Source: an uncultured cyanobacterium (GTDB taxonomy: Bacteria > Cyanobacteriota > Cyanobacteriia > Cyanobacteriales > FACHB-T130). From it: a stretch of DNA of 43,202 nucleotides. The DNA lies in NCBI GenBank assembly GCA_936920195.1, contig CAKZHE010000085.1, positions 1 through 43,202 on the forward strand, written 5' to 3'. Positions 6,414 through 32,490 of the stretch are shown piece after piece. The notes beneath the pieces were generated by a model that did not search any database, was not told the DNA's origin, and saw nothing but the letters and a program-made list of their open reading frames with translations. Every line of letters begins with the position of its first letter. The first letter of the stretch is position 1. A program made the position numbers and the translations under genes.

Positions 6414-6439
6414 TAGTATCACCCTCATTGATTAATTTT

Positions 6440-6466
6440 AGCCCTGCCCTCCGCAGGGCTTTTTCT
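6440..6466 (+). terminator. Rho-independent terminator of the porin gene
   Basis: AGCCCTGC at 6440-6447 pairs perfectly with GCAGGGCT at 6453-6460 across a 5-nt loop, followed by TTTTTC. It lies 27 nt after the porin stop codon. Confidence 0.9.
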
Positions 6467-6478
6467 TTACAAGCAAAA

Positions 6479-6700
6479 GTTCGTAGTTGGGCTTTAGCCC
6501 TAATCCGGAGGGGCGGGTTTATTGAGATTATTGGTGAAGATTAAAATTCCTGCCCAAACCCGCCGCTACATCAATATTGGGTTATCCCAATTCGTAGAGA
6601 CGTTCCGCTGGAACGTCTCCTGGCTGAAACGTCTCCTGGCTGGAACGTCTCCTATGGTTGGCGTGGCTGTATAAGACAGGGCTAAAGCCCAACTACGAAC
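6479..6700. repeat. MITE-like element with 23-bp perfect inverted ends (GTTCGTAGTTGGGC family)
   Basis: The left end at 6479-6501 (GTTCGTAGTTGGGCTTTAGC...) is exactly complementary to the right end at 6678-6700. Inside are a G+C-rich segment shared in inverse orientation with the element at 8216-8415, and hairpins of the GAGACGTTCC/GGAACGTCTC type (6597-6619), followed by partial copies. No open frame of note is present. No target duplication is obvious. This fills most of the gap between the porin and the Rrf2 gene. Confidence 0.8.
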
Positions 6701-6707
6701 CTATGTA

Positions 6708-6750
6708 TTAAACTACGGCAGACAACCGGGGTATAATAGGGTGATACCCT
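6708..6750 (+). promoter_or_regulatory. Candidate rrf2-cysK promoter with overlapping operator
   Basis: A perfect -10 box TATAAT lies at 6732-6737, with a weak -35 (TTAAAC, 6708-6713) 18 nt upstream. Two overlapping palindromes cover the -10 and probable start: GGGTAT at 6729-6734 with ATACCC at 6744-6749, and AGGGT at 6738-6742 with ACCCT at 6746-6750. A site placed like this would suit repression by the Rrf2 protein encoded 19 nt downstream. The match to any known Rrf2 operator was not tested. Confidence 0.55.
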
Positions 6751-6768
6751 CTTACTAAAAATAAATCT

Positions 6769-7206
6769 GTGGAACTTTCCTGTAAAACTGAATATGCGTT
6801 GCTCGCCCTCCTAGAGCTAGCCATCCGCTATAACGAAGGAGAACCGCTGCAAATTCGGCAGATTGCGGCGCAACAAAATATTCCTGACCGCTACCTAGAA
6901 CAATTATTAGCCACATTGCGGCGCAGCGGCTTGGTACGCAGCCAACGGGGAGCCAAAGGAGGCTATCTACTCGCACGGGAACCCCGAAAAATTACCCTTT
7001 TTGATATAGTGAGTTGTTTGGATGGTTTAGACGCGCAGGAATCGGAACAAGAAACTGCCAGAGCTACCCTAGAAAATGCCGTGATTGGAGACATTTGGCG
7101 AGAAGTCCGTCAGGCGGTAAACTTAGTTCTACAACAACATACGCTCCAGGATCTTTGCGACAAGCGAGATGCTAGACGGCAGTTGGACATCATGTATTAC
7201 ATTTAG
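6769..7206 (+). CDS. Rrf2-family transcriptional regulator, CymR-like by context
   Basis: A 145-aa winged-helix protein starting at GTG 6769. The N-terminus (MELSCKTEYALLALLELA), the helix-turn-helix stretch (LQIRQIAAQQNIPDRYLEQL, LRRSGLVRSQRGAKGGYLLA) and ITLFDIVSCLDGL are diagnostic of Rrf2. Cysteines are at 5, 84 and 129 only, so the three-Cys cluster of IscR-type Fe-S sensors is missing. cysK starts 30 nt downstream on the same strand. In Bacillus the Rrf2 protein CymR binds CysK to control cysteine metabolism. That parallel makes sulfur control the best guess here, by inference from context. Confidence 0.9.
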   Translation: MELSCKTEYALLALLELAIRYNEGEPLQIRQIAAQQNIPDRYLEQLLATLRRSGLVRSQRGAKGGYLLAREPRKITLFDIVSCLDGLDAQESEQETARATLENAVIGDIWREVRQAVNLVLQQHTLQDLCDKRDARRQLDIMYYI

Positions 7207-7236: not shown

Positions 7237-8199
7237 ATGCGTATTGCGAACAATATTACCGAACTGGTAGGCCGGACTCCTTTAGTACAGCTAAATCGGA
7301 TTCCTCAAGCCGAGGGTTGTGTAGCTCAGATTGTGGTCAAATTAGAGGGGATGAATCCCGCCGCTTCGGTAAAAGACCGAATTGGTGCCAGCATGATTAG
7401 TGTGGCAGAAGCACAGGGTTTAATTGCGCCTGGTAAAACAGTCTTAGTAGAACCAACTTCGGGCAATACGGGGATTGCCTTGGCAATGGTAGCGGCAGCT
7501 AAGGGTTATCGACTAATTTTAACCATGCCGGAAACTATGAGCCTAGAGCGACGAGCCATGCTGCGAGCCTATGGAGCCGAATTGGTACTAACTCCGGGAA
7601 TTGAAGGGATGAGCGGTTGTATTCGCCGCGCCCAAGAAATTGTGGACAATACGCCAGATGCCTATATGCTCCAACAGTTTAGCAATCCGGCAAATCCGAA
7701 AATTCACCGGGAAACCACGGCGGAGGAAATTTGGCAAGATACCGATGGACAAGTAGATATTCTGATTTCGGGAGTGGGAACTGGGGGAACAATTACCGGG
7801 GTAGCAGAGGTACTGAAAGCCAGGAAAGACAGTTTTAAAGCGATCGCAGTCGAACCAGCCAATAGTCCAGTATTATCAGGAGGTCGCCCCGCACCGCATA
7901 AAATTCAAGGGATTGGGGCGGGATTTGTCCCAGAAGTGCTAAAAGTGGCATTGATTGATGAAATTATCCAAGTAACAGATGATGATGCGATCGCTTATGC
8001 TCGTCGTTTAGCGCGAGAAGAAGGCTTACTATCTGGTATTTCCAGCGGTGCGGCTCTCGCTGCCGCCATTCGCGTTGCCCAACGTCCGGCAAATCAAGGC
8101 AAGTTAATTGTCATGATTCAGCCTAGTTTTGGCGAACGCTACTTAAGCACGGTGCTATTCCAAGAACCAGAACCCCGCCCCGTTTCTGCTACCAACTAA
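7237..8199 (+). CDS. cysK: Cysteine synthase A (O-acetylserine sulfhydrylase)
   Basis: A 320-aa PLP enzyme that makes cysteine from O-acetylserine and sulfide in the cytosol. The start ATG 7237 gives the usual N-terminus ([20 protein letters not shown]); a TTG 12 nt earlier is possible but less likely. The PLP lysine is K46 in [11 protein letters not shown]. The substrate loop [12 protein letters not shown], the phosphate-binding [11 protein letters not shown] and the C-terminal GISSGAA are all intact. Length and motifs are normal for CysK; the CysM alternative is less likely given these motifs but not excluded. It probably forms an operon with the upstream Rrf2 gene. Confidence 0.93.
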
Positions 8200-8215
8200 T
8201 TGCTACGATCAAGAC

Positions 8216-8415
8216 GTTCGTAGTTGGGCTTGGGCCCTCCTGATAGTGGCTCAAGCTAGGCTGTTGACTTTGTGCCTTTTTATAGGGTTTCTGGCAGTTT
8301 CTGAGTAATCGATTTCGGGATTGATGTAGGGGCGGGTTTGGGCAGGAATTTTAATCTTTACCATAATCTCCATAAACCCGCCCCTCCGGATTAGGGCTAA
8401 AGCCCAACTACGAAC
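8216..8415. repeat. Second MITE-like element of the GTTCGTAGTTGGGC family
   Basis: The ends at 8216-8238 and 8393-8415 are complementary with about two mismatches. The stretch 8322-8415 is nearly the reverse complement of 6479-6578 in the first element. The left part (8254-8319) instead matches the inverse of 4095-4162, so the element is a composite. It fills the whole space between cysK and lgt. Confidence 0.75.
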
Positions 8416-8445
8416 TTTTTTTACGATCGCCTATTTATATTCCCT

Positions 8446-9393
8446 ATGTTGTTCAACCTGCCAATTTTAGCATTTGAATTTACTTCTCCGGGTTCCACCT
8501 TGGTGAATCTCGGTTCTCTACAAATTCGCTGGTATGGTACGCTAATTGCCTCAGCGGTAATTATTGGCCTAACTCTGGCGATGTATTTGGCAAAACGTCG
8601 CCAAGTGAATCCAGATTTACTCAGCGATCTTGCCCTGTGGCTAATCGTGGCGGCAATTCCCTCGGCTCGCCTGTACTATGTGATATTTGAGTGGCATCGA
8701 TTTGCAGATAGTCCCCCAGAAATAGTTAATATTGGATCTTGGGCGATCGCTCTCCCAGCAGCTGTAGCGATTTGGAAGGGAGGAATTGCCATTCACGGGG
8801 CAATTTTGGGGGGAACTCTTGCCACCTTAATTTTTGCGAGATTACACAAAATTCCCTTTTGGCAACTAGCAGATATTGTCGCTCCCTGTTTGATTCTAGG
8901 GCAAGCGATTGGGCGGTGGGGAAATTTCTTTAATTCCGAAGCCTTTGGCGATCCCACTAATTTGCCGTGGAAACTATTTATTCCCCCAGATCGTCGTCCT
9001 ACAATCTTTGCCAATTTTGAATATTTTCATCCCACTTTTTTGTACGAATCCCTCTGGAATTTGATGCTTTTTGGGATATTGCTGTGGTTATTTTTTCGAG
9101 ATGTCAATGGCAAACAACGCCTAAAAACTGGAACTTTGTTTTTAGTTTATATGGCAGTTTATAGTGCGGGGAGATTTTGGATTGAGGGATTGCGGACAGA
9201 TAGTTTAATGCTGGGTTCCCTGCGAATGGCGCAGGTAGTTAGTTTAACGGGAATTATTTTGGGAGTAGCGGGATTAGTCTGGCTGTATCTCTTTCACCGC
9301 CCACTACCAGATATAGTCACAGAGGAAGAATATCAGCAGGCAGAAATTAATCGCCAAAATGCTGAGACTAGCATCCAAAATGGGGATGAATAG
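8446..9393 (+). CDS. lgt: Prolipoprotein diacylglyceryl transferase
   Basis: A 315-aa inner-membrane enzyme that moves a diacylglyceryl group from phosphatidylglycerol to the lipobox cysteine of prolipoproteins. Hydrophobic segments run throughout. Hallmarks are [11 protein letters not shown] near the N-terminus, [13 protein letters not shown], the signature [28 protein letters not shown] and [14 protein letters not shown]. Length is slightly above the usual 270-300 aa because of a polar C-terminal tail after [10 protein letters not shown]. No clear Shine-Dalgarno precedes the ATG. The gene stands alone between repeat elements. Confidence 0.95.
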
Positions 9394-9403
9394 GGATTAA
9401 AAA

Positions 9404-9428
9404 AGCCCTAGAGGTTGTCTCTAGGGCT
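9404..9428 (-). terminator. Hairpin with a U-tract on the minus strand, just after lgt
   Basis: AGCCCTAGAG at 9404-9413 pairs perfectly with CTCTAGGGCT at 9419-9428. On the plus strand AAACC follows, so there is no U-tract for lgt. On the minus strand the hairpin runs into TTTTTTAAT, a proper intrinsic terminator. The nearest minus-strand gene upstream of it is more than 2.6 kb away, so it may end an unannotated minus-strand RNA or block antisense transcription of lgt. Confidence 0.6.
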
Positions 9429-9728
9429 AAACCAGGGTGCATCTACCAATAATTGATTTCCAAACAGATTAGGGTCGATCCGGAAAATATGGTAATTTCG
9501 ATTGAGCTTGATATTCTTTTGTTAGCAAAATTAGGAAAAAGTTTGTAGTTGGGCTTCAGCAGTGGTAGTGGTAGTGGTAGGGTGCGTTAGCGATAGCGTA
9601 ACGCACCGTTAACTGGTATGCGGTGCGTTACGCTGCCGCTAACGCACCCTACTAGATACTGCCGAGGAACCAGTTCAAAACTCTCTTCTATTTTTGGTTA
9701 GTACAGCTTTTTGATCCCGATTTAATCT
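9429..9728. other. Gap between lgt and cobM, with a 76-bp palindromic repeat
   Basis: No coding region is supported. At 9577-9652 there is a long near-palindrome: GTAGGGTGCGTTAGCG at 9577-9592 is the exact complement of 9637-9652. An inner pair, AGCGTAACGCACCG and CGGTGCGTTACGCT, also matches. Related copies lie at 27541-27592 and in the last 130 bases of the window. A one-arm fragment of the TAGTTGGGCTTCAG family lies near 9540. I see no cobalamin riboswitch features before cobM. Confidence 0.7.
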
Positions 9729-22846: not shown

Positions 22847-22941
22847 TGTTATCTAAATTTTTTTGTTTTTTTATTAAGTCCTGATTAAGCGATGCCTTAT
22901 GAGTGAATATTATTTATCAAGTTATTTTTTTGGAGATAATC

Positions 22942-25290
22942 GTGAGCCAATTAAACAATTCCCCAAAAATCTCGGACTTGATTGGCGATCCTTTTGCCGC
23001 AGGCGGTAGTCGTTCCGTAGAAGCTTGGTTCTTAGGCTCTAGAGCCGAAAATCTGGATGAATTTGAAAAGCTCATTGTTGAGGCCGTTAGGGATCACGGA
23101 TTTTGGCGGCGAAATTTCCATCCCGGCGACCCTAGTTATATTACCGAAGAAGTCAAGCGCAATCCCGATTTTTTGCAAGCAATAGAACACACCAGAGATA
23201 GTTTTAGGGAACTCTTAGCATGGCTGAAAAAATCAGTACCGTTTTTTAGCTTGCGTTATCAGGGTCACATGAACTGGGAAACAACAATCCCCTCAATGTT
23301 AGGGTATTTTGCCACCATGCTCTACAACCCCAATAACGTTGCTTTTGAAGCTTCCACCGTCACCACTCTACTAGAAATGATTGTTGGTGACGATCTGTGT
23401 AGAATGTTAGGCTACTATGTGCCAACGGAAGCAGAAAAAGCTGAGGGCATGATAGCTCCTTGGGGTCACATTACCTCTGGGGGGACAGTGGCTAATTTGG
23501 AAGGATTGTGGGCAGAGAGGAACCTGAAATTTTATCCTTTCACCTTAAGGGAAGCGATCGCCGAAGCCCCAGAACTAGCTGCCGGAAAACAAATTACCAT
23601 TCGTTTGGCCTATGGACAGCTCAAGGAATTGTTGGAATTAGATACCTGGGAACTGCTCAATCTCAAGGCTGATGATATTTTGGAAATTCCCGATCGTCTC
23701 ACGAAAGAGTTCGGAATTCCAGCCCAAGATGTCAAAAAAGCCATTGGTGAAACTCCCTATACCCTGCAAAAGATGGGTATGAGAGCTTTTGCCAACAAAT
23801 TCCTGTCCGATGTCCCGGAACAGCCAGTCTTTTTTGTTCCCGGTACGAAACACTATTCTTGGCCTAAATCAGCTGCCATCTTAGGAATTGGCTCCAATCA
23901 AATGCGGGATGTTGGCATTGATATTAATGCCAGGATGCGGATTGATGAACTGAACAGTAAATTGCAAGAATGTCTTGAAAAACGCATTCCAGTCCTAGGA
24001 GTAGTGATGGTGATGGGTAGCACGGAAGAAAGTTCCATCGATCCCTTAGCCGATCTTCTTGAGATACGGGAGGAATTTCGCCAGCAAGGTTTAGAGTTTA
24101 GCATCCATGCTGATGCCGCTTGGGGCGGTTATCATGCCTGCTTGCTAGATCGTTCCGAAACCGATGCTTTCAGCGCTACAGATGCCCCTAGTCCAGGAGT
24201 AGGATTAAGCGCTTATGCCGAAAAGCATATGAATGCTTTAGTTCATGCCGATACCATCACTGTCGATCCCCACAAATCGGGCTACATTCCTTACCCCGCT
24301 GGAGCGCTATGCTATCGTAATGGGGCTATGCGCGATTTGCTCACCTTTATTGCCCCCTACGTTAATCATGGCGATGAAGAACCAAATGTGGGCAGCTATG
24401 GGGTAGAAGGTTCTAAACCGGGAGCCGCTGTCGCGGCTGTTTACCTGAGCCATAAAGTAATCCGCCCGGATTTGACTGGCTATGGTCAAATTATTGGTCG
24501 GGCAATGTTTAGCTGTAAGAAGCTATATTCCCGGCTATTGTGCATGGCTCGCCCAGAAGATCAGTTTGTGGTGGTTCCAGTGCCTCATTTGGCAGCAGCG
24601 ATTCCAGGGGCAAACAATGAGGCCAAAATTCAGTTTGTCCGCGATCGCATTGACCAAAAAACCAATGCCGAAATTCAGCAAGATGCTGAAGTGATGCAAA
24701 TTTTGCGGGAAATGGGGCCGGATCAAAATATTCTCACCTATGCATTCAATTTCAGAAATCCTGATGGCGACCTCAATACCGATCTTGACAAAGCCAATGC
24801 ACTGAATCAAGCCTTATACAAGATTCTGAGTATCAAAGCCGGATCTGATATCTATGGGTACAATTTGATTGTGAGTACCACTAGCTTTGAAGAAGAACAT
24901 TATGGAACCCTGTTTATGAACGATTATAAGCAGCGGTTGGGGGTGAGCGATCGCTCTAACAAACCCATTACAATCTTGCGTTCCACAGTCATGGACCCTT
25001 GGATTACAGAAGCCAAAGGTCGCCCATTTATTGACATCATTGAAGAAGAATTTCGCAATGCTGTCTCCCAAGCTTTGTTACAAACTTCCATCTTGCAAGT
25101 ATTTCAAAATATTGATAGTAACCAAAATGGTTATGTCAGTAAATCTGAAGTTACTACCCAATTGCGAACTTTGGGCTACACCGATCTGGAAATCGACAAC
25201 ATTTGGAATATTTCGGACTCCAACCAAGATGCCATTCTCTCCTATAATGAATTTCTGACTAATTTTGCGACCTTCCTGATTCTCAAATAG
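22942..25290 (+). CDS. PLP-dependent decarboxylase (group II) with two C-terminal EF-hands
   Basis: A 782-aa protein. The start is GTG 22942, preceded by TTTGGAG with 6-nt spacing; a GTG at 22903 is less likely. Residues 1-700 are a pyridoxal-dependent decarboxylase of the glutamate/tyrosine/aromatic amino-acid class, with GHMNWETTIPSMLGY, HITSGGTVANLEGLW, HADAAWGGYHACLL and the PLP lysine K445 in DPHKSGYIPYPAG. The substrate cannot be assigned. The end carries two Ca2+-binding EF-hand loops. One is DSNQNGYVSKSE at 725-736, a perfect 12-residue loop. The other is DSNQDAILSYNE at 759-770, with Ala in place of the usual Gly. Catalysis may thus be Ca2+-controlled, which is inference. A 15-bp hairpin follows. 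Confidence 0.9.
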   Translation: MSQLNNSPKISDLIGDPFAAGGSRSVEAWFLGSRAENLDEFEKLIVEAVRDHGFWRRNFHPGDPSYITEEVKRNPDFLQAIEHTRDSFRELLAWLKKSVPFFSLRYQGHMNWETTIPSMLGYFATMLYNPNNVAFEASTVTTLLEMIVGDDLCRMLGYYVPTEAEKAEGMIAPWGHITSGGTVANLEGLWAERNLKFYPFTLREAIAEAPELAAGKQITIRLAYGQLKELLELDTWELLNLKADDILEIPDRLTKEFGIPAQDVKKAIGETPYTLQKMGMRAFANKFLSDVPEQPVFFVPGTKHYSWPKSAAILGIGSNQMRDVGIDINARMRIDELNSKLQECLEKRIPVLGVVMVMGSTEESSIDPLADLLEIREEFRQQGLEFSIHADAAWGGYHACLLDRSETDAFSATDAPSPGVGLSAYAEKHMNALVHADTITVDPHKSGYIPYPAGALCYRNGAMRDLLTFIAPYVNHGDEEPNVGSYGVEGSKPGAAVAAVYLSHKVIRPDLTGYGQIIGRAMFSCKKLYSRLLCMARPEDQFVVVPVPHLAAAIPGANNEAKIQFVRDRIDQKTNAEIQQDAEVMQILREMGPDQNILTYAFNFRNPDGDLNTDLDKANALNQALYKILSIKAGSDIYGYNLIVSTTSFEEEHYGTLFMNDYKQRLGVSDRSNKPITILRSTVMDPWITEAKGRPFIDIIEEEFRNAVSQALLQTSILQVFQNIDSNQNGYVSKSEVTTQLRTLGYTDLEIDNIWNISDSNQDAILSYNEFLTNFATFLILK

Positions 25291-25366: not shown

Positions 25367-25611
25367 CTAGGGACTACCAAAACCTCCCAACGCAGTTTTA
25401 CTAAAACTAGCTGCCCCTTGACTGGCTCGCACCGCTGACTGGGAGAACACCTGAAAGGCTTTGCGAATGTCATTTTTGCTATTTTTGGGGGTAATTACCC
25501 ACTCATCGCGAATACCCATCTCGCGGAAAAAATCTTGGACATTAGTGCTACCGTTATCAATTCCCATTGCCGCAATAATGTGATTTTCTGCCATTAACAT
25601 ATCTTTATGTT
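25367..25611 (-). pseudogene. Duplicated 3' end of the VWA gene
   Basis: About 245 bp are nearly identical (roughly nine differences by my count) to the 3' end of the VWA gene at 26659-27450, from the stop codon back to codons near MLMAENHIIA. It encodes only the last 77 residues, with most changes silent, and has no MIDAS motif. On the far side the similarity stops abruptly after CATATCTTT (25603-25611). It is therefore a truncated copy with no likely product of its own. Together with the full gene it brackets the amidase gene. Confidence 0.85.
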
Positions 25612-25851
25612 AGCTACAGGTGGTTTCTGCTCCATAAAAATGTATAGTTTCGTTATCTGTAGTCAACTTAAAGAGAATTGATATTACGCAAATATTCAAT
25701 CTATATGCTATATATGGTAGACGAATGCCATATAGCCCTAGCGGGCATGGCTGCGCTAACGCCCTTACTAAATCTAGAGGCACTGTTGATGCTATGGGTA
25801 TGTTTACATACTCAATTGCCTGTAGACCATTTGTAAAATGAGGAAAAAAGC
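25612..25851. other. Region upstream of the amidase
   Basis: There is no gene here. It is A+T-rich with a small GGGC...GCCC stem around 25743-25765. A good ribosome binding site (GAGGAAAA) sits just before the amidase ATG. No promoter is clear enough to mark. Confidence 0.5.
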
Positions 25852-26598
25852 ATGAAGTTTGGTATTGATATGGGTCATAATTGTCCTCCACACGATACTG
25901 GTGCTAGCGGTTGGGCACAAGAAGATAATCTGACAAGATCTGTTGGCACTAGCTTGATTAGCAAACTGCAAGCATTAGGGCATCAGGTAGTTGATTGTAC
26001 TGCCACTCGTGCTAGCAGTGTTAATGATTCTTTGCGACAAAGAGTTCAGAAAGCTAATAGTCAGAACGTAGATTTTTTTGTTTCCATTCACTTTAACGCC
26101 CATAATGGCAGCGCTCATGGCACTGAAATTTATGCCATTAGTAGTACAGCCAGAGAAGTAGCTCAAAATGTTCTGAAGCAAATAGTTCAATTAGGCTTTA
26201 AAGATCGCGGAGTTAAATCATCAGGATTTTATGTAATCAGAAATACTAAGATGCCAGCTATTCTGATAGAATGCTGCTTCTGTGACTCTGAAATAGATCG
26301 CAGTAAATTTGATGCCACGAAAATGGCAGCCGCGATCGCTACAGGTTTAACAGGCCAGCATCCTAGACCTAAAAACTATAAGCTACAGGTGACGCAAAAT
26401 ACTGTTTTAAAACCCTCCACCGAACAATCAACTAGCTTGCCTCCAGAAAGTTTAGTAGACATTCAGCTAGGGGAATACAAAATAGTTGATTTTAGCTTTG
26501 AAGAAGGCCATTATTCAGTGGTTTGGCCTGATGAGAGTAAAGGCCACCGCCGCGAACATTTTGTATTTGCAGGTCATGCAAAAGTAGTTGCTGTTTAA
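25852..26598 (+). CDS. N-acetylmuramoyl-L-alanine amidase (Amidase_3 type)
   Basis: A 248-aa zinc amidase that would cut the bond between muramic acid and the peptide stem of peptidoglycan. Zinc and catalytic residues are present: H9 (GIDMGHNC), E24 (WAQEDNL), H80 (FFVSIHFNAHNG) and E140 (MPAILIECCF). The catalytic domain covers about residues 1-170. The last 70 residues, after a linker, are unrecognised. No signal peptide is visible, unlike the septal AmiC enzymes, so it resembles endolysins or enzymes exported by another route. It lies between a partial and a full copy of the oppositely oriented VWA gene, and may have arrived with the duplication. Confidence 0.92.
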   Translation: MKFGIDMGHNCPPHDTGASGWAQEDNLTRSVGTSLISKLQALGHQVVDCTATRASSVNDSLRQRVQKANSQNVDFFVSIHFNAHNGSAHGTEIYAISSTAREVAQNVLKQIVQLGFKDRGVKSSGFYVIRNTKMPAILIECCFCDSEIDRSKFDATKMAAAIATGLTGQHPRPKNYKLQVTQNTVLKPSTEQSTSLPPESLVDIQLGEYKIVDFSFEEGHYSVVWPDESKGHRREHFVFAGHAKVVAV

Positions 26599-26658: not shown

Positions 26659-27450
26659 TTAGGGACTACCAAAACCTCCCAAGGCAGTTTTACTAAAACT
26701 AGCTGCCCCTTGACTGGCTCGCACCGCTGACTGAGAAAACACCTGAAAGGCTTTGCGAATGTCATTTTTGCTATTTTTGGGGGTAATTACCCACTCATCG
26801 CGAATGCCCATCTCGCGGAAAACATCTTGGAAATTAGTGCTGCCATTATCAATTCCCATTGCCGCAATAATGTGATTTTCTGCCATCAACATATCTTTGA
26901 CAATGGAAGCTACTGTTTTGGCATTTGCCCTGGCAGAATGTTCGTCAGCCCCATCAGTAATAATTAGGGTAATAGTTCGCACAGGAACACCATTATCCGC
27001 AAATTCTTGCGACTTGGCTAACACTGTGCCTAATAATACCACAGTTTGATCGTATAGGGGCGTACCTTCATTGGGTTGGTAGTTCCCCGCATCCATTCGT
27101 ACTGCTTGTTCAATAGCACAATAGGGATAGAGAACATATCCATTGAGATAGCGATTGTGGGCGAGAATATTGTCTTTTTGTTTGGAAGAAATTAAAGCAT
27201 CTAGGACAGCATTGTGTCCATCTCGAACTGCTTGGGTATTCCCAGAATAGGCAATTGAACCGGAATCATCGGGCATGATAGTTAGAAGTACCACTTCGCT
27301 CGCCATCACATCATCGACACTTACGCCTAATCCAGCTTGAATTTGTGCGCCAATATCGACCACATTTAAAGCTTGGAAGGAAGCAGTAGAAAGTAAGCCT
27401 TCTTCTTGGGCAGATTGAAACAGATTATTGAGGTTAGGTGTTTGGCTCAT
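26659..27450 (-). CDS. VWA-domain protein, YegL-like in context
   Basis: A 263-aa cytosolic protein with a von Willebrand factor A fold. The metal-ion-dependent adhesion site is complete: D61-x-S63-x-S65 in PDDSGSI, the threonine in NEGTPLYDQ and the aspartate in LIITDGADEHS. No signal peptide or membrane segment is present. The C-terminal tail (QGAASFSKTALGGFGSP) is Ser/Gly-rich. It is the most downstream of four minus-strand genes that include a kinase and a PP2C phosphatase, the same trio as E. coli YegL/YegI/YegK. Its job there is unknown; VWA proteins commonly act as scaffolds. Its 3' third is duplicated at 25367-25611. Confidence 0.9.
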   Translation of the reverse strand: MSQTPNLNNLFQSAQEEGLLSTASFQALNVVDIGAQIQAGLGVSVDDVMASEVVLLTIMPDDSGSIAYSGNTQAVRDGHNAVLDALISSKQKDNILAHNRYLNGYVLYPYCAIEQAVRMDAGNYQPNEGTPLYDQTVVLLGTVLAKSQEFADNGVPVRTITLIITDGADEHSARANAKTVASIVKDMLMAENHIIAAMGIDNGSTNFQDVFREMGIRDEWVITPKNSKNDIRKAFQVFSQSAVRASQGAASFSKTALGGFGSP

Positions 27451-27734
27451 GATCGTTTTTAAGGTTGATAATGAATGGTGAAATTTCGTAGGGGCAATCC
27501 CCCCGTGGTTGCCCCGTTAAATTGCAGTCAGTAGTAGTCAGTAACGCACCGTTAACGTAGGCGGTGCGTTACGCTATCGCTAACGCACCCTACGTTTAAT
27601 TACTCGTTCCCAGGCTCTGCCTGGGAATGCCCATTGAGAGGCTCTGCCTCGTATGAGCGCCAAGCGAGGCAGAGCCTCTGGATATCGGTTCCCAGGCAGA
27701 GCCTAGGAACCAGTTCAATCAGTTCAAATGAGAT
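27451..27734. repeat. Three stacked palindromic repeat families between VWA and hydrolase genes
   Basis: In order come a GGGGCAA/TTGCCCC palindrome (27491-27515), a GGTGCGTTACGCT-type palindrome (about 27541-27592) and a long copy of the CCAGGC-TCTGCCTGG / GAGGCAGAGCCTC family (27603-27715). No gene is present. Confidence 0.85.
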
Positions 27735-28781
27735 TTAGAAAGAAATATCAGGCCATTGATTGATGGCAGTGGTAGATTTAACTAGGTGCATTCCAGCTTT
27801 GGCAAAGCGGCGAAAAGCCTCTTCTCCTTGGTCGGTAAAATCTACTATCCCAGGAACAACAACGGGAGAAGTACAATCTTCTAGTAGATACACTTTTTTG
27901 GCTAAATTGGGGTCTTGGACTTGAATTTCAGTTAACAAATCATCAATTGTCCAAGCCACACAATGACTCTTAGCTTGCCCCGCAATAATTACTGCATCAT
28001 ATTCCAATAGTTTCTGAATAAATCGGGCATTCTTTTGGGCAATTGGTCGTCCATCCGCACCGTCTAAAACTTCCGGACGAAGGACGGAATAATTCTCAGT
28101 TAATGGATTGCCACCTTTGATTTCAAACCCTGTTTGACTATGGCGAGCAATGCAGTGGAAAAATAGCGCTTCTTCCACTGAGGAAACTAAGGCATGACCA
28201 ATCCCGCCCAGAATAGAATGATAAGGCCAAATAATTAGGGGATATTTGCCGCCATCGCTGAGTTTTTGGACGTAATGTAGGGCATGACGTTGTAAAGCTA
28301 AGTAGTTTCCTTGGGCAACGCTCCAGGCAATAGCCGGGTTAACTTTCCATTTGCCACTATTCACATCCGCGAGGGGAATTACTGTCATGGGTGCGGGATG
28401 TTCGCCAGCATCATTAATCCAAAATATCGGATGGAAAATCTGCATGGCGGTGTGAGTATCCATTGTCGGATAAATGGCGGTAATTGTCCCCAAATGACGA
28501 TAAATAAATTCGCACAGGCGGACGTTATCATCAATGGCTCCCGTGCCAGAACGTCCAGATACAAATAATTCAAATTTAGGGATACAAAAGGTATTTTGGG
28601 CATCAATAATCATCAAGCAAATGCGAGTTTTATCTTTTGCGGCTGGTTGAATATTTTGTTGTTTTGCCCAGGCTGCGGCTTCGGGAGCGCGTTCTTGGTA
28701 AAGGACTCGCCAGACTTCGCCAACTTTCTTGGCATCGAAGTGGGTAGGAATTGGTAAAGGATTAATGGTTTTGGTAGTCAT
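27735..28781 (-). CDS. Isochorismatase-fold hydrolase, nicotinamidase-like
   Basis: A 348-aa cysteine hydrolase behind an excellent AGGAG site (6-nt spacing). The catalytic triad of the nicotinamidase family is visible: D60 (MIIDAQNTFC), K222 (GFEIKGGNPLTENYS) and C274 (IIAGQAKSHCVAW). Metal-type residues D108, H110 and H117 (TMDTHTAMQIFHPIFW) favour nicotinamidase over isochorismatase. It is longer than a typical nicotinamidase (about 200 aa), with about 50 extra residues at the N-terminus and a broad insert. It probably hydrolyses nicotinamide or a related amide; this is inference. Neighbours are a kinase, a phosphatase and an NrtR-like regulator. Confidence 0.88.
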   Translation of the reverse strand: MTTKTINPLPIPTHFDAKKVGEVWRVLYQERAPEAAAWAKQQNIQPAAKDKTRICLMIIDAQNTFCIPKFELFVSGRSGTGAIDDNVRLCEFIYRHLGTITAIYPTMDTHTAMQIFHPIFWINDAGEHPAPMTVIPLADVNSGKWKVNPAIAWSVAQGNYLALQRHALHYVQKLSDGGKYPLIIWPYHSILGGIGHALVSSVEEALFFHCIARHSQTGFEIKGGNPLTENYSVLRPEVLDGADGRPIAQKNARFIQKLLEYDAVIIAGQAKSHCVAWTIDDLLTEIQVQDPNLAKKVYLLEDCTSPVVVPGIVDFTDQGEEAFRRFAKAGMHLVKSTTAINQWPDISF

Positions 28782-28822
28782 ATTTTCTCCTAAAATTTCT
28801 AAACTTTTACTACATTGATTTG

Positions 28823-28845
28823 GAGACGTTCCACCGGAACGTCTC
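28823..28845. repeat. GAGACGTTCC / GGAACGTCTC hairpin repeat
   Basis: A 10-bp perfect inverted repeat with a 3-nt loop, followed by CTACGAACTGGGATAACCCAA. It is the inverse of the same motif inside the element at 6479-6700 (6583-6619). Confidence 0.8.
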
Positions 28846-28909
28846 TACGAACTGGGATAACCCAACATTTTTGAAATGGTTAATAAATTTCATGGCTGCT
28901 CCTAAATTT

Positions 28910-30772
28910 TCAAGCGATTTTTAGCAAGTTGATTTGCCGCTGATTGATAACATATAAACCTTGTTCGCTGGCTAATAATTGACTGCTGGCATTGACAAAA
29001 GGTTCGGTATCGGGAAATTCTTTGGTTTTAACTATTTGTCCATTTTGCAGTTCTACTCGCACTACACCATCATCGGTAGCGGCAAGAAGAAATTTACCTG
29101 CGGCACATTTTCCTCCTAAAGATGCTAGCCAAGAATTATCGCCTCGTTCTGCTTCGGCTGTGGCTTCAATTGTGCCATTGCTGCGAATAATGGTGCAGCG
29201 ATTAATGATTCTACCTGCTTCTTGAGTTGCCCAGAAAAACCAGCATCTCTCATCGGCAAATGTGCAGGTGGCATCAATTAATTGTCCTGGTGAAAAGGGA
29301 ATTTTTACGGTATCATTAATTCCTCTCCTGTTAGTATCAAATACAAAGGCGACATTCAGGTTTCCGGCTCGATAGAAACCAAAACCAAAATTATTTCCTA
29401 CCCAAAAATGAGTTTGTCCGGCTAATACATCGCCAATATATTCAGCGCCTAAATTGCCGTCTCGCAATAATTGTCCGCTATAAGTCCAATAACGTCCATA
29501 TTCGTTGACATCAAAGCTGTCAATGGCTAATCGTTCGGAATTTTGGTAGGGAATTAAGGAAATTAATTGTCCTTGTTTAGCAATCAAGGTGGTTTTGCCT
29601 TTGATTCTAAATTGTAATTCTGGATCTAGGTTGCCGCTGAGAACCACAAAGTTATCTTCGCGCCGAAATTCACCACTTTGATGATATAACCATTGAATTT
29701 TCTGGTTTTGTAAGCTGGCAAATAAAATAATTCCTTCGGTGGCAAAGATGCGGTTGGCGGTGACTGTTCCCCGAACTATGACAGTTAAAGTTGCGGAAAG
29801 TTGCGGTAAGGTGGTAGTAATGGTGGTACAGTTGGGACAAGTGTTTCTAGCATATTCAATCCCACAGGTTTGACAGGTTTGCCATTGCAGGTTGTCGAGG
29901 AGCGATCGCTCAAATTTCCCCCTTCGATCTTGCTCAAAGATTTGATGAAAGTAGTGCAATAAATTGTCAGGTAACACTTGATAAGGAACGGCGGGTTTAG
30001 GATATTTAACTTCGGGATGAAAAACAGTAATTCGATGCAATGGTCTGGCATCATGGGCAATCCTTTTCGTGGGATCTTTCGGTCGATAAACTCCACCGTA
30101 GGGATCTACAAATAAAAGAGATTGCATTAACATCACTGTAAAAGCATACCAATCAGAGTTAACTGAATGGGGTTGGTTTAACAAAGGGCGATCGCCATCA
30201 GGATCGCACAATAGGGGATCGACAAATCTGGCGGTAAAGACTTTGCTGAGAAATCCCCCGTATTGGAAGGAATCGGCATCAATTAAATAGGGTTGATTAG
30301 ATTTAATTAAGACGTTTAAATCGTTGAAGTCTCCTAATACGACTTGAGCTTGATGAATCTGCTCTACAATATTGTGTAATTGTTGAAATATTGCCACTAC
30401 AGATTGGTTGGTAATACCTGCTTGTCGAAAGGCGCGATCGCTATATTTCATTAAAGTAGCGGCTCCCTGAATTAAGGGCATGGTATAACCTAATATAGTT
30501 TGCCTTTTTTTATCAGTAGCTAAACTTTCGGGGCGAATTACATAGCTAGGTAAATTTTGGGGGAATTGGGGTAATTTCCGTTGGCGTTCGGCAAGGCGAT
30601 CGCGTGCCGCCTGTTGTTCCATTAAGTTACCTTGATAGTCGGGATGATTGGGTGGCTTAAAAAGTTTTAAAGCTTTACCATTGCCAAGATCGTAAACGTC
30701 TGCTTCGCCACCTTTGCCGATGGCTTTGCTAGGATGGAGAGGGATTTTTTTGCCGTTGAGATAAACATCCAT
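28910..30772 (-). CDS. Protein kinase with zinc ribbon and C-terminal beta-rich domain (YegI-like)
   Basis: A 620-aa soluble protein from the ATG at 30772; a TTG at 30790 adds 6 residues. The kinase domain spans about residues 1-280, with a glycine loop IGKGGEADVY (18-27), K36 in ALKLF, the catalytic loop VVLGDFNDLNVL (D148, N153) and a metal-binding D165 in YLIDADSF. The HRD and DFG motifs have thus changed to LGD and DAD, as in YegI-type kinases. A four-cysteine zinc ribbon follows (C300, C303, C312, C315). The last 300 residues are beta-strand rich and could form a propeller-like sensor. It lies between a PP2C gene and a nicotinamidase-like gene, so phosphatase and kinase probably act on shared targets. 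Confidence 0.88.
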   Translation of the reverse strand: MDVYLNGKKIPLHPSKAIGKGGEADVYDLGNGKALKLFKPPNHPDYQGNLMEQQAARDRLAERQRKLPQFPQNLPSYVIRPESLATDKKRQTILGYTMPLIQGAATLMKYSDRAFRQAGITNQSVVAIFQQLHNIVEQIHQAQVVLGDFNDLNVLIKSNQPYLIDADSFQYGGFLSKVFTARFVDPLLCDPDGDRPLLNQPHSVNSDWYAFTVMLMQSLLFVDPYGGVYRPKDPTKRIAHDARPLHRITVFHPEVKYPKPAVPYQVLPDNLLHYFHQIFEQDRRGKFERSLLDNLQWQTCQTCGIEYARNTCPNCTTITTTLPQLSATLTVIVRGTVTANRIFATEGIILFASLQNQKIQWLYHQSGEFRREDNFVVLSGNLDPELQFRIKGKTTLIAKQGQLISLIPYQNSERLAIDSFDVNEYGRYWTYSGQLLRDGNLGAEYIGDVLAGQTHFWVGNNFGFGFYRAGNLNVAFVFDTNRRGINDTVKIPFSPGQLIDATCTFADERCWFFWATQEAGRIINRCTIIRSNGTIEATAEAERGDNSWLASLGGKCAAGKFLLAATDDGVVRVELQNGQIVKTKEFPDTEPFVNASSQLLASEQGLYVINQRQINLLKIA

Positions 30773-30830
30773 GATTTTTTTGACAGCCAATAGAATTCTT
30801 CGTATTCAGGATTTATGCACCTATCCTAAA

Positions 30831-30921
30831 AATAGGGGCAACCACGGGAGAATAGGGGCAACCACGGGAGAATAGGGGCAACCACGGGAGAATAGGGGCA
30901 ACCACGGGGGGATTGCCCCTA
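30831..30921. repeat. Four tandem 20-bp half-palindromes of the GGGGCAA family
   Basis: AATAGGGGCAACCACGGGAG occurs exactly at 30831, 30851 and 30871. A fourth unit at 30891 runs on into GGGGGATTGCCCCTAC, the missing right arm. Only the last unit can form the full palindrome, while the left arm has been amplified. It fills the gap between the kinase and PP2C genes. Confidence 0.9.
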
Positions 30922-30924
30922 CAG

Positions 30925-31719
30925 CTAACGCTTTCTAATCGCAATTAAAGTAGTATCATCTGACAGCAACCCTAAAGATTTGGTAATTTGGTGATTTTGC
31001 CAGTCTGGTTTAATGACTTCGTTGTTAATTAAAGCTAGACGGCGACGTACCATATCTGAATTAATAAAATAGCGATCTTCTTGCCAAAATTGACTAATTG
31101 TGCCAACTGTTTCTGGCTTTCCTGGTAAGTTCTTTTCTGCCCCTTGGATTAAATCAATTACTCCATCCGTCCCAATTAAAATTGAGGAAACTTCCGCAAT
31201 GGGCAATTGATGATGAATCTGAAATTGCCACTCCGAAGCCGATCTTTCTAGCAATCCATAGGCTAAATAGGGCGGGGCATTGTCGGCAAAGGGACCTAAT
31301 GATAAAATTTCCCCATTGAGTGCGATCGCACCATCTCCTAATGAAAAAGTTGTCACTCCACTTGGTAAAATCAGCGCTCCCACAATGGTAAATAAAAAGT
31401 AGTCGTTGACGGTTTCCGATAAGTTCCCTCCCATCCCCCGCACCAAAGTTTCCAATTGATCTAAAACCTCTTGTCGCACCTCTTCCCAAAAGTTATTTGA
31501 CTGACTAACTAGATGGCGCTGAATAGCTGCCGCAATTAGCCGTACACCAATTTTTGCCCCTACTTCGCTATGTTTACCGCTACCACAACCATCGCTGACG
31601 ATCGCGATCGCCATTTCTTCGGTAACATAACTGTAATAGGCATCTTGATTATTTTTCCCAGTTCTCAGATGGTTAGTTCCGGCAATCGAACCCGCCGCCA
31701 GTTCAAATAGTCTTTTCAT
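30925..31719 (-). CDS. PP2C-family protein Ser/Thr phosphatase (YegK-like)
   Basis: A 264-aa phosphatase from the ATG at 31719; a GTG at 31743 adds 8 residues and neither has a clear ribosome binding site. The metal-binding aspartates of the PP2C (PPM) family are present: D26 in GKNNQDAYYS, D43 in IVSDGCGSGKHSE, LGDGAIAL, IGTDGVIDLI and LLSDDTTLIAI. It would remove phosphate from Ser/Thr in the cytosol. It is transcribed towards the kinase gene from a promoter region shared with the divergent Nudix regulator. In E. coli yegK codes for the phosphatase of the matching trio. Confidence 0.9.
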   Translation of the reverse strand: MKRLFELAAGSIAGTNHLRTGKNNQDAYYSYVTEEMAIAIVSDGCGSGKHSEVGAKIGVRLIAAAIQRHLVSQSNNFWEEVRQEVLDQLETLVRGMGGNLSETVNDYFLFTIVGALILPSGVTTFSLGDGAIALNGEILSLGPFADNAPPYLAYGLLERSASEWQFQIHHQLPIAEVSSILIGTDGVIDLIQGAEKNLPGKPETVGTISQFWQEDRYFINSDMVRRRLALINNEVIKPDWQNHQITKSLGLLSDDTTLIAIRKR

Positions 31720-31749
31720 AGGTGCTTGGTGTTGCTCATACACTTATGA

Positions 31750-31768
31750 TAGTGTGGATAAAACACAA
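31750..31768. promoter_or_regulatory. Candidate operator in the PP2C/NrtR divergent region
   Basis: TAGTGT at 31750-31755 and ACACAA at 31763-31768 form an imperfect palindrome with a 7-nt centre, in the only short non-coding gap between the two divergent genes. NrtR proteins bind palindromes near their target genes, but I could not compare this with a known cyanobacterial NrtR box. Confidence 0.25.
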
Positions 31769-31797
31769 CGTCAATAGTTTTGGCAAAAATTCCCATT

Positions 31798-32490
31798 ATG
31801 CCCCACACCTACGAGTTTCCCAGACCTGCTCTGACAGTCGATTGCGTCGTCTTTGGCCTAGACGAACAAAACTTATTGAAGGTAATGTTGATTAAAAGGA
31901 ATTTGACCCCTTTTCGGGACGAGTGGGCGCTTCCTGGTGGCTTTGTCCGCATTAGCGAATCCCTGGAATCAGCCGCCATGCGGGAATTGCACGAAGAAAC
32001 CGGGATTGAAAAAGTCTTTTTGGAACAACTTTATACCTTTGGCGACTTGAATCGAGATCCCCGCGATCGCGTTGTCACCGTGGCGTATTATGCTTTAGTA
32101 AATCTCGCTGAACAGAAAATTCGTCCTCAAACCGATGCCAGTGCCGCTGCTTGGTTTCCCATCTCAGATCTGCCGCCCCTAGCCTTCGATCATGACCGAA
32201 TTTTAGCCACAGCGATCGCCCGATTAAAAGGCAAAGTTCGTTATGAGCCGATTGGTTTTGAATTGCTGCCGAAAAAATTTACCCTTTCTCAGTTGCAAAA
32301 GTTATATGAAACTGTTTTAAATACCAAACTAGACAAGCGAAATTTCCGCAAAAAAATCCTCAGTATGGATCTTTTAATTGATTTAAATGAAATGCAAAAA
32401 GATGTTGCCCACCGTGCTGCCAAGCTTTATCGGTTTGATGAACAAAAATATCGCAAGCTCAAGCAAAGAGGATTTAACTTTGAAATTTAA
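31798..32490 (+). CDS. nrtR: Nudix-domain regulator of NAD metabolism, NrtR-like
   Basis: A 230-aa protein from ATG 31798; a TTG at 31780 is the alternative. The N-terminal Nudix domain has an intact box, G48-x5-E54-x7-R62-E63-L64-x-E66-E67-x-G69 ([15 protein letters not shown] then RELHEETGI). The C-terminal part ([36 protein letters not shown]) matches the winged-helix domain of NrtR. NrtR represses NAD(+) biosynthesis and salvage genes and responds to ADP-ribose. Because the Nudix box is complete, it may also be a hydrolase. The divergent phosphatase-kinase-nicotinamidase-VWA cluster is the obvious target candidate. Confidence 0.88.

Follow-up and report, generated by a model that had tools for sequence, protein, structure and literature searches.

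A nicotinamidase-like cysteine amidohydrolase (HYD), a VWA protein, a PP2C-type phosphatase and a Ser/Thr-type kinase (KIN) form a recurring core of four genes, found in bacterial genomes as well as in phage records and viral contigs, to which a regulator, an ADP-ribosylglycohydrolase or NAD-salvage genes are added depending on the lineage. We propose, with a probability of about 0.6, that this tetrad rebuilds NAD+ via nicotinate and is switched on upon NAD+ breakdown to ADP-ribose and nicotinamide. The locus described here (nt 26659–32490) lies in the window, i.e., the whole analysed stretch of 43,202 nt from an uncultured cyanobacterium (GCA_936920195.1, contig CAKZHE010000085.1, positions 1–43,202, forward strand).

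The five ORFs described in a sequence-only reading of this DNA were confirmed at the same coordinates and strands by ORF, profile and alignment evidence (Table 1). Homology favours a start downstream of the ORF opening for the kinase (ATG 30772, the ORF opening at TTG 30790), for the phosphatase (ATG 31719, the ORF opening at GTG 31743, a start that overlaps the putative operator) and for the regulator (ATG 31798 within the ORF 31780–32490, plus strand). No PncB, NadE or glycohydrolase gene was recognised beside the operon within the window.

Table 1. Features of the locus, in window coordinates.
Feature	Position (nt)	Strand	Evidence
VWA (TerY-like) protein, 263 aa, MIDAS-like DDSGS...T...D	26659–27450	-	Alignment of 25
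HYD, nicotinamidase-like cysteine amidohydrolase, 348 aa	27735–28781	-	Predicted fold and invariant residues
HYD key residues: D60, K222, C274; D108, H110, H117; H188			
Kinase (KIN), Ser/Thr-type, CxxC/CxxC zinc ribbon, predicted C-terminal beta-propeller	28910–30772	-	Alignment of 26, AlphaFold2 and Foldseek
PP2C-type phosphatase	30925–31719	-	Pfam PP2C_2 (PF13672), E 1.3e-21, above cut-off
Putative operator palindrome 2, AAGTGT-N7-ACACCA (minus-strand reading)	31727–31745	.	Palindrome scan
Candidate -10 hexamer TATCAT, 17 bp past -35	31746–31751	-	Sequence
Putative operator palindrome 1, TTGTGT-N7-ACACTA (minus-strand reading), occupying the -35/-10 spacer	31750–31768	.	Palindrome scan
Candidate -35 hexamer TTGACG, presumed PP2C-KIN-HYD-VWA promoter	31769–31774	-	Sequence
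NrtR-type regulator, Nudix domain (intact Nudix box) and winged helix	31798–32490	+	Pfam, PDB relatives, Nudix box

By their sequences, the VWA, kinase and phosphatase genes make up a TerY-P triad, defined in the accessible part of PMC11090510 (citing Anantharaman et al. 2012) as a TerY-like VWA protein, a PP2C and a Ser/Thr kinase with a C-terminal zinc ribbon; neither a proven substrate nor a signal is assigned to such triads in that part of the text. The kinase scores under the Pfam cut-off (Pkinase, 21 vs 31.7 bits) and the VWA protein of the window has no Pfam match. Kinase residues G16, G17, E18, A19, K31, D143, D160 and D162 are nevertheless retained in the alignment of 26 proteins, in which the CxxC...CxxC cysteines of the zinc ribbon (C295, C298, C307 and C310) are invariant; the beta-rich tail noted earlier behind this ribbon is predicted to fold as a propeller. 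In the VWA alignment, D61, S63, S65, T130 and D166 are invariant and MIDAS-like, and DxSxS was found in 79 of 85 viral VWA matches. Partial matches of the kinase to PADLOC entries PD-T4-6 and MkoA covered about 50–150 residues of the kinase core only, and membership was not accepted. Among the PP2C genes elsewhere in the genome, the top-scoring one (C73) has no triad-profile match next to it.

With the kinase, PP2C and VWA profiles built here, E. coli YegI, PphC (YegK) and YegL scored 88, 32 and 23 bits, respectively; of the match to YegL/YegI/YegK claimed from sequence, the kinase part is thus clear, whereas that of the VWA protein is weak. The set resembles the TerY-P triad and E. coli YegL/PphC/YegI in its three activities, their architecture and the adjacency of the genes. 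It differs from the TerY-P triad in having a nicotinamidase-like hydrolase as fourth recurring gene, a predicted propeller past the zinc ribbon of the kinase and, in the cyanobacterial copies, an NrtR-type regulator.

The hydrolase was placed by fold search alone, all sequence searches being without placement: no match was found in Pfam (E up to 0.1), PADLOC, PHROGs or PDB sequences (phmmer and profile search), and NCBIfam gave a single row at chance level (E 0.051). In particular, PF00857 did not match the window HYD at E up to 0.1 and matched a Variovorax homologue below cut-off (E 0.0093). On the contrary, the first eight VIA-align rows for the predicted model (mean pLDDT 78.6) were nicotinamidases, led by 9u8m (Z 17.2, 217 residues aligned, rmsd 3.1) and including 3v8e (Z 16.7), 2wt9 (16.0) and 3r2j (15.8), differences in Z below 1 being counted as ties; the top three Foldseek rows were nicotinamidases too. 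Other amidohydrolases of this fold (biuret, triuret, maleamate, carbamoylsarcosine) reached Z 13.6–14.8, and isochorismatase-family proteins without assigned function up to 15.6.

Residues D60, D108, H110, H188, K222 and C274 are invariant in 101 of 101 HYD homologues compared and H117 is present in 92, these 101 proteins, like the 100 rows of the tree, being a chosen subset; the long branches of the tree (L101, L174, L102, L122 and L185) are of unsure placement. The Asp-Lys-Cys catalytic triad of nicotinamidases is found in HYD as D60, K222 and C274, and their Asp-His-His metal site has a probable counterpart, its metal-binding residues being a putative assignment. We take the Asp-Lys-Cys and Asp-x-His motifs to be the counterparts of the PncA residues. 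In predicted fold and in these motifs HYD is like the nicotinamidases (PncA/Pnc1; 9u8m, 3v8e, 2wt9, 3r2j, 3pl1), from which it differs in being only 15–23% identical in structural alignment, longer, provided with extra segments and unrecognised by PF00857. HYD looks like a nicotinamidase, predicted to recycle vitamin B3 (nicotinamide) toward NAD. Since several amide substrates occur within this fold, HYD may instead act on a non-nicotinamide, or nucleotide-linked, amide, the triad serving as a general TerY-P switch for the sensing of stress or metals and the regulator sensing a different Nudix ligand. Such a reading draws on the missing Pfam placement and on the aligned span, 157–217 of the 348 aa with the best eight structures; we consider it unlikely, the first eight fold rows all being nicotinamidases.

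The grouping is not confined to this genome; such confinement would have spoken against the earlier proposal. In a survey of 194 genomes (cut-offs E 1e-20, and 1e-30 for the regulator; PP2C left out), KIN and VWA were each found in 7 genomes, the same 7, and each time beside HYD. Where HYD occurs in the surveyed cyanobacteria, it is mostly without the triad, 48 of the 55 HYD-positive genomes lacking KIN and VWA at E 1e-20. Genome loci were also fetched, the best 80 of 408; as this sample is skewed to close relatives, the survey of 194 genomes gives fairer numbers. In the fetched loci the strand of HYD was shared by the triad genes in all 89 cases, and HYD stood without any other family in 41 of the 80 loci, some of them on short contigs. 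The five-gene set put forward earlier recurs, but its fixed core is of four genes, the regulator depending on the lineage. In Microcoleaceae, HYD has RNA ligase and polynucleotide kinase-like genes in its vicinity; these follow a fixed neighbour block and not the tetrad, and a link to RNA repair was dropped.

Among phage records and IMG/VR contigs, 88 loci collapsed at 90% identity into 67 clusters, 56 of which carry the full triad within 8 kb of HYD; 11 are without the complete triad and 3 of those without any triad gene. IMG/VR contigs may contain bacterial DNA; four loci (L104–L107) are GenBank phage records. The VWA, PP2C and KIN profiles were seeded from HYD neighbourhoods (the window, L086 and L022, and the viral L104, L105, L106, L107, L109, L111 and L114), so that as many as seven of the 67 clusters may be positive by construction. 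Another isochorismatase-family protein of the host genome and an RNA ligase served as viral controls but gave only 1 locus each, and background loci were therefore obtained with two short DNA patterns chosen arbitrarily: the triad profiles exceeded threshold in 0 of 121 such loci (987 kb, individually shorter than the 67 HYD loci with their 1,078 kb), and a subset of 81 likewise gave no match.

A neighbourhood due to chance or shared inheritance, with no joint function, could be argued from the HYD genes that stand without other families, and is very improbable in view of the linkage counts. Besides the empty background, the triad genes lie on the HYD strand in 240 of 240 cases in the 88 viral loci (near-duplicates included) and in 329 of 329 over genome and viral loci together; the same partner genes are kept even though window and phage HYD share only 32–37% identity, and the promoter palindromes described below are conserved. 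HYD and the triad are grouped far beyond chance.

In some distant members there are additional genes for nicotinate phosphoribosyltransferase, NAD synthetase, PRPP synthetase or an NrtR-like protein, neighbours which tie HYD to NAD salvage. On contig L086 of genome G035 the order on one strand is PP2C-KIN-HYD-VWA-NrtR-PncB-Prs-NadE (Pfam-supported), in L060 it is NrtR-HYD-PncB, and in Variovorax (L103) NrtR, HYD and PncB are consecutive by profile. By profile score, PncB or NadE lies within 8 kb in 15 of the 67 viral clusters (PncB in 11) and an NrtR-like protein in 5 further ones; two of these neighbours, PncB in L150 and NadE in L107, were checked with Pfam. The PncB neighbours argue against another amide as the substrate, a reading to which the 47 viral clusters with no PncB, NadE or NrtR-like match within 8 kb lend some weight. 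The link to NAD metabolism made in the sequence-only reading is strengthened by these neighbours, together with the predicted fold and active site of HYD and a putative NrtR-type operator.

The regulator matched NUDIX (PF00293, 4.6e-21) and NrtR_WHD (PF21906, 2e-30), both above cut-off, with 5bs6 (AraR) and 3gz5 as PDB relatives. Against the NCBIfam NtrR model it scored 176 bits for a cut-off of 400, and by sequence it is a diverged relative of the NrtR family, not an equivalog of that curated ADPR-responsive model. Two NrtR-type proteins were found in the host genome; the other, a paralogue at G000:C251, has NadE and a NadD-like gene (so named from its sequence) in its vicinity. As in the NrtR family (Shewanella 3gz5/3gz6, Synechocystis, Bacteroides AraR 5bs6), a Nudix domain is joined to a winged helix, the promoter has palindromes and distant members have NAD-salvage neighbours, whereas the window regulator is a diverged paralogue and the Nudix box is intact in the cyanobacterial module regulators (21 of 21 tested). 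A match to the Nudix-box pattern was obtained for 22 of 30 regulators; those without one are L060, L086, L102, 4 of 5 viral regulators and the other NrtR of the host genome. This limits any self-resetting regulator to cyanobacteria at most. The L086 regulator has an insertion inside the Nudix box.

GTGT-N7-ACAC palindromes occur in 27 of 30 cyanobacterial promoter regions faced by the regulator, against 0.2% of mononucleotide shuffles, many of the 30 regions being from related Pseudanabaena; they include four in which the regulator directly faces HYD (L012, L017, L037 and L089). In the host genome the tandem pattern has a single occurrence. Of 62 HYD-upstream regions tested, 53 have no palindrome. 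These palindromes are a putative dedicated operator of the NrtR-type regulator, at a sigma-70-like promoter. According to PMC4666351, Shewanella and Synechocystis NrtR proteins lose DNA binding with ADP-ribose, and AraR, of the same family, has arabinose as ligand; the effector of the window regulator could therefore be another ligand, a point that also favours the non-nicotinamide reading of HYD.

While the gene set, its recurrence, the active-site residues and the candidate operator palindromes are read from sequence, we infer operon transcription, substrate, effector, phosphorylation target and physiological trigger as follows. The four minus-strand genes would make up a single operon that the divergent regulator represses via the two promoter palindromes; upon NAD+ breakdown, ADP-ribose would bind the Nudix domain and release the operon. 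HYD would deamidate the leftover nicotinamide to nicotinate, which the PncB-NadD-NadE route would return to NAD+. The TerY-P triad, with VWA scaffold, zinc-ribbon kinase and PP2C, would act as a reversible phosphorylation switch on HYD, a salvage partner or an NAD+ consumer. Phosphorylation may control NAD salvage, the reverse of the direction proposed earlier, in which the level of NAD+, ADP-ribose or nicotinamide would control phosphorylation. For phages, the tetrad would be a means of restoring NAD+ during infection, and in some cyanobacteria ADP-ribosylglycohydrolase could be an extra source of free ADP-ribose. More tentatively, and with the odds rather against it, the set may be a mobile NAD+-recovery tetrad of large phages and bacteria in which the TerY-P switch directly gates the nicotinamidase and deamidating salvage, and in which cyanobacterial induction by ADP-ribose ends as the Nudix box of the regulator destroys its own ligand and the system resets.

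ADP-ribosylglycohydrolase sits between PP2C and KIN in 17 of the best 80 of 408 genome loci. Its presence would suit a host operon that counters, by defence or repair, ADP-ribosylation or NAD+ depletion caused by invaders, and in which HYD merely removes inhibitory nicotinamide. The glycohydrolase-centred host systems predicted in PMC9503650 (section 3.8) likewise combine a glycohydrolase, a Nudix-HTH regulator, a phosphatase and sometimes a vWA gene, and PMC10855318 and PMC11090510 list or cite TerY-P modules among antiphage systems. However, the phosphatases of PMC9503650 are of rhodanese, calcineurin, HD or HAD type, PP2C and nicotinamidase being absent from its text, and the glycohydrolase is optional in window-type loci: it is missing from the other 63 of those 80 and from the window operon, the two PF03747 matches of the host genome being on other contigs. 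A tetrad on phage records and IMG/VR contigs also fits counter-depletion better than host defence, a role we regard as quite unlikely.

The preferred reading, recovery of NAD+ via nicotinate, brings the tetrad close to other phage-borne NAD+ rebuilding, namely NARP1 (Adps, Namat; PMC12774641, PMC13232231) and the NAMPT/NMNAT sets of jumbo phages (PMC7824862). As described in the accessible parts of these sources, both start from ADP-ribose or nicotinamide with no deamidation, whereas the tetrad would use nicotinate and a phosphorylation triad, suggesting a phage route distinct from those we found described. Among the titles and abstract starts listed in literature searches, which did not extend to some key early papers, none describes HYD with the triad.

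NAD recycling and kinase-phosphatase-VWA signalling, usually treated apart, thus appear linked. The module regulator may hydrolyse its own inducer, and a HYD partner kept from cyanobacteria to huge phages offers a direct test of the TerY-P target and of ADP-ribose switching. If gating by TerY-P is true, it would give a concrete metabolic context to orphan triads, perhaps including E. coli YegI/PphC/YegL.

The PP2C phosphatase, the zinc-ribbon Ser/Thr-type kinase (KIN), the nicotinamidase-like hydrolase (HYD) and the VWA gene all lie on the minus strand of the window, with an NrtR-type regulator (NRTR; Nudix plus winged helix) divergent from PP2C, in a draft host genome of 5.7 Mb. The VWA, PP2C and zinc-ribbon kinase (triad; tetrad when HYD is included) match the description of TerY-P in the available part of PMC11090510. 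The profiles of this study also matched E. coli YegI, PphC (YegK) and YegL, at 88, 32 and 23 bits. The last ~290 residues of KIN were predicted with high confidence, and in the predicted model they resemble beta-propellers.

Coordinates of the features discussed
Feature	Sequence	Position (strand)	Remark
HYD	window	27735-28781 (-)	
VWA	window	26659-27450 (-)	
Operator palindromes	window	31727-31768	
Broken second copy of the C-terminal part of VWA	window	25373-25636 (-)	covers profile positions 175-262 at 135 bits and contains one stop
N-acetylmuramoyl-L-alanine amidase gene	window	25852-26598	lies between VWA and its broken copy
Repeat-like DNA in operon gaps	window	30820-30930, 28790-28905, 27460-27730	by eye
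Copies of ttgcccctattctcccgtgg	window	gap preceding KIN	by eye
Repeat-like inverted stretches	window	gap preceding VWA	by eye
Pyridoxal-dependent decarboxylase-like protein	window	22903-25290	C-terminal EF-hand-like repeats; name from sequence reading
HYD relative adjoining an RNA ligase gene	L101, Vibrio megaplasmid	7998-9570	TerD-family gene ~4 kb off; no triad profile match in L101
Further protein upstream of the tetrad	L106; L114 (gut-type viral contigs)	2255-3703; 5609-7102	

HYD was placed by none of the sequence libraries searched. Its AlphaFold2 model (49 sequences, mean pLDDT 78.6, pTM 0.80) retrieved the nicotinamidases 9u8m, 3pl1 and 3v8e as top Foldseek matches, and nicotinamidases filled rows 1-8 of VIA-align, with Z of 17.2 for 9u8m (217 residues), 16.7 for 3v8e, 16.0 for 2wt9 and 15.8 for 3r2j, ahead of the remaining proteins of the fold (Z ≤15.6), Z differences <1 being ties. 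D60, D108, H110, H188, K222 and C274 were invariant in a chosen set of 101 HYD proteins of cyanobacterial, other bacterial and phage-contig origin, in which H117 was conserved in 92; we take these seven to be counterparts of the PncA catalytic and metal residues. Four ordinary PF00857 proteins are also found in the host genome, thus HYD is not the sole member of its fold there.

A survey of 194 genomes of the phylum with HYD, VWA and KIN (E 1e-20) retrieved HYD in 55 and both VWA and KIN in the same seven, in all of which the three genes lie within ~1 kb of one another. Neighbours were scored within 8 kb in the best 80 of 408 HYD loci from GTDB genomes: the full set of NRTR, PP2C, KIN and VWA accompanied HYD in 21, some of these families or PncB in 18, and none of them in 41, some on short contigs. 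An ADP-ribosylglycohydrolase was present in 17 of the 80, 14 of these being full-set loci. Among these best 80 loci, the order was PP2C-KIN-HYD-VWA wherever the triad was present, and 89/89 triad genes shared the strand of HYD, whose window copy is 83% identical to that of the cyanobacterium Argonema antarcticum. Two or three tandem glycohydrolase copies lie between PP2C and KIN in the Pseudanabaena-type loci L021, L022, L028, L031-L033, L038 and L039.

A tree built from 100 chosen HYD proteins places the cyanobacterial clade among triad-bearing lineages, and the triad label requires 16 changes, against 25 in shuffles. The simplest interpretation is that the triad was lost within cyanobacteria; L035 (NRTR-PP2C-HYD) and L012 (NRTR-HYD), set in the same neighbour block where other Microcoleaceae have HYD alone, look like eroded versions of the module. 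In L051-L081, mostly Microcoleaceae, triad-less HYD often belongs to an extended conserved gene block that also contains RNA ligase, polynucleotide kinase-like, pyridine-nucleotide oxidoreductase-like and SNARE-associated-like genes, named from sequence reading.

Of 30 regions separating NRTR from the adjacent gene, 27 contain GTGT-N7-ACAC palindromes (24 of these have two), against 0.2% of shuffled regions; the three lacking them are one locus with an inserted gene and two genomes with NRTR away from HYD. They occur also where HYD directly faces NRTR, and upstream of HYD itself in 9/62 loci, some with no NRTR seen adjoining HYD. In the window, one palindrome occupies the 17-base spacer of TTGACG/TATCAT and the second comes after, a layout expected for repression; tandem palindromes with a -35 occur in the assembly only at this operon. 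The second NrtR-type protein of the host shares its contig with NadE and a NadD-like gene, and no such palindrome occurs in this 12 kb stretch. The Nudix box was complete in all 21 cyanobacterial module regulators examined, which may thus cleave their own ligand, and was not complete in the host's other NrtR, L060, L102 and 4/5 viral regulators; that of L086 bears an insertion. The related genomes L087 and L088 keep a module-type regulator far from HYD and without palindrome, adjoining in L087 DNA polymerase III-like and MlaE-like genes (names from sequence reading).

HYD relatives are present in four phage records, of which three span 462-595 kb. The order is HYD-VWA-PP2C-KIN in LR756500, where a NadE-like gene lies 3.3 kb upstream, and in MT837596, where the sequence end truncates KIN. 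An IMG/VR profile scan gave 178 HYD relatives; the 80 retained, with earlier loci, made 88 viral loci, which 90% identity clustering reduced to 67 clusters. VWA was present in 63 of these, PP2C in 61 and KIN in 57, the complete triad in 56 and no triad gene in three; all 240 triad genes of the 88 loci, near-duplicates counted, share the HYD strand. No profile reached its threshold in 121 control viral loci (987 kb, picked by two arbitrary short patterns). PncB occurred in 11 clusters, NadE in nine and NrtR-like genes in five, with no match to any of these in 47. The protein upstream of the tetrad in L106 and L114 was at first read as TROVE/Ro60; Pfam assigns the L106 copy to DUF2828/DUF7788, with a VWA_2 match.

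The nicotinate route runs from nicotinamide to nicotinate (nicotinamidase), NaMN (PncB), NaAD (NadD) and NAD+ (NadE), and the gene neighbourhoods described here match it. Most telling is L086, where PP2C-KIN-HYD-VWA-NrtR-PncB-Prs-NadE follow on a single strand, the last four supported by Pfam. Its HYD is 47% identical to that of the window and was found in no other genome among 18 of its class; the L086 genome, in the phylum, is 9% contaminated, so its host is unsure. NrtR-HYD-PncB is found in L060 (a MAG labelled Proteobacteria), and consecutive NrtR, HYD and PncB matches in L103 (Variovorax). In L102, another Variovorax plasmid, an NrtR-like gene diverges from HYD, which is followed by a VWA match (174 bits), with macro-domain and NAD kinase genes close by.

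Each component has been described before: TerY-P, NrtR, nicotinamidase and the rebuilding of NAD+ by phages. Section 3.8 of PMC9503650 predicts operons in which a glycohydrolase is accompanied by Nudix regulators, phosphatases and vWA genes; the text of PMC9503650 nowhere mentions PP2C, nicotinamidase or TerY; the available part of a jumbo-phage survey (PMC7824862) names NAMPT-type and NMNAT genes. Since the components are known and no account of the tetrad was found in a literature search whose coverage excluded the main TerY-P paper, we take the tetrad, that paper aside, as a new variation on known systems.

The gene set, its recurrence, the active-site residues and the palindromes rest on this analysis, whereas substrate, effector, phosphorylation target and trigger are inferred. 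We propose an NAD+-recovery operon with an internal phosphorylation switch. ADP-ribose released by NAD+ breakdown would lift repression by NRTR, HYD would convert nicotinamide to nicotinate, and KIN, PP2C and VWA would adjust the activity of HYD or of a partner. In phages, the tetrad would counter depletion of host NAD+; cyanobacteria may use it to the same end, against phages or stress.
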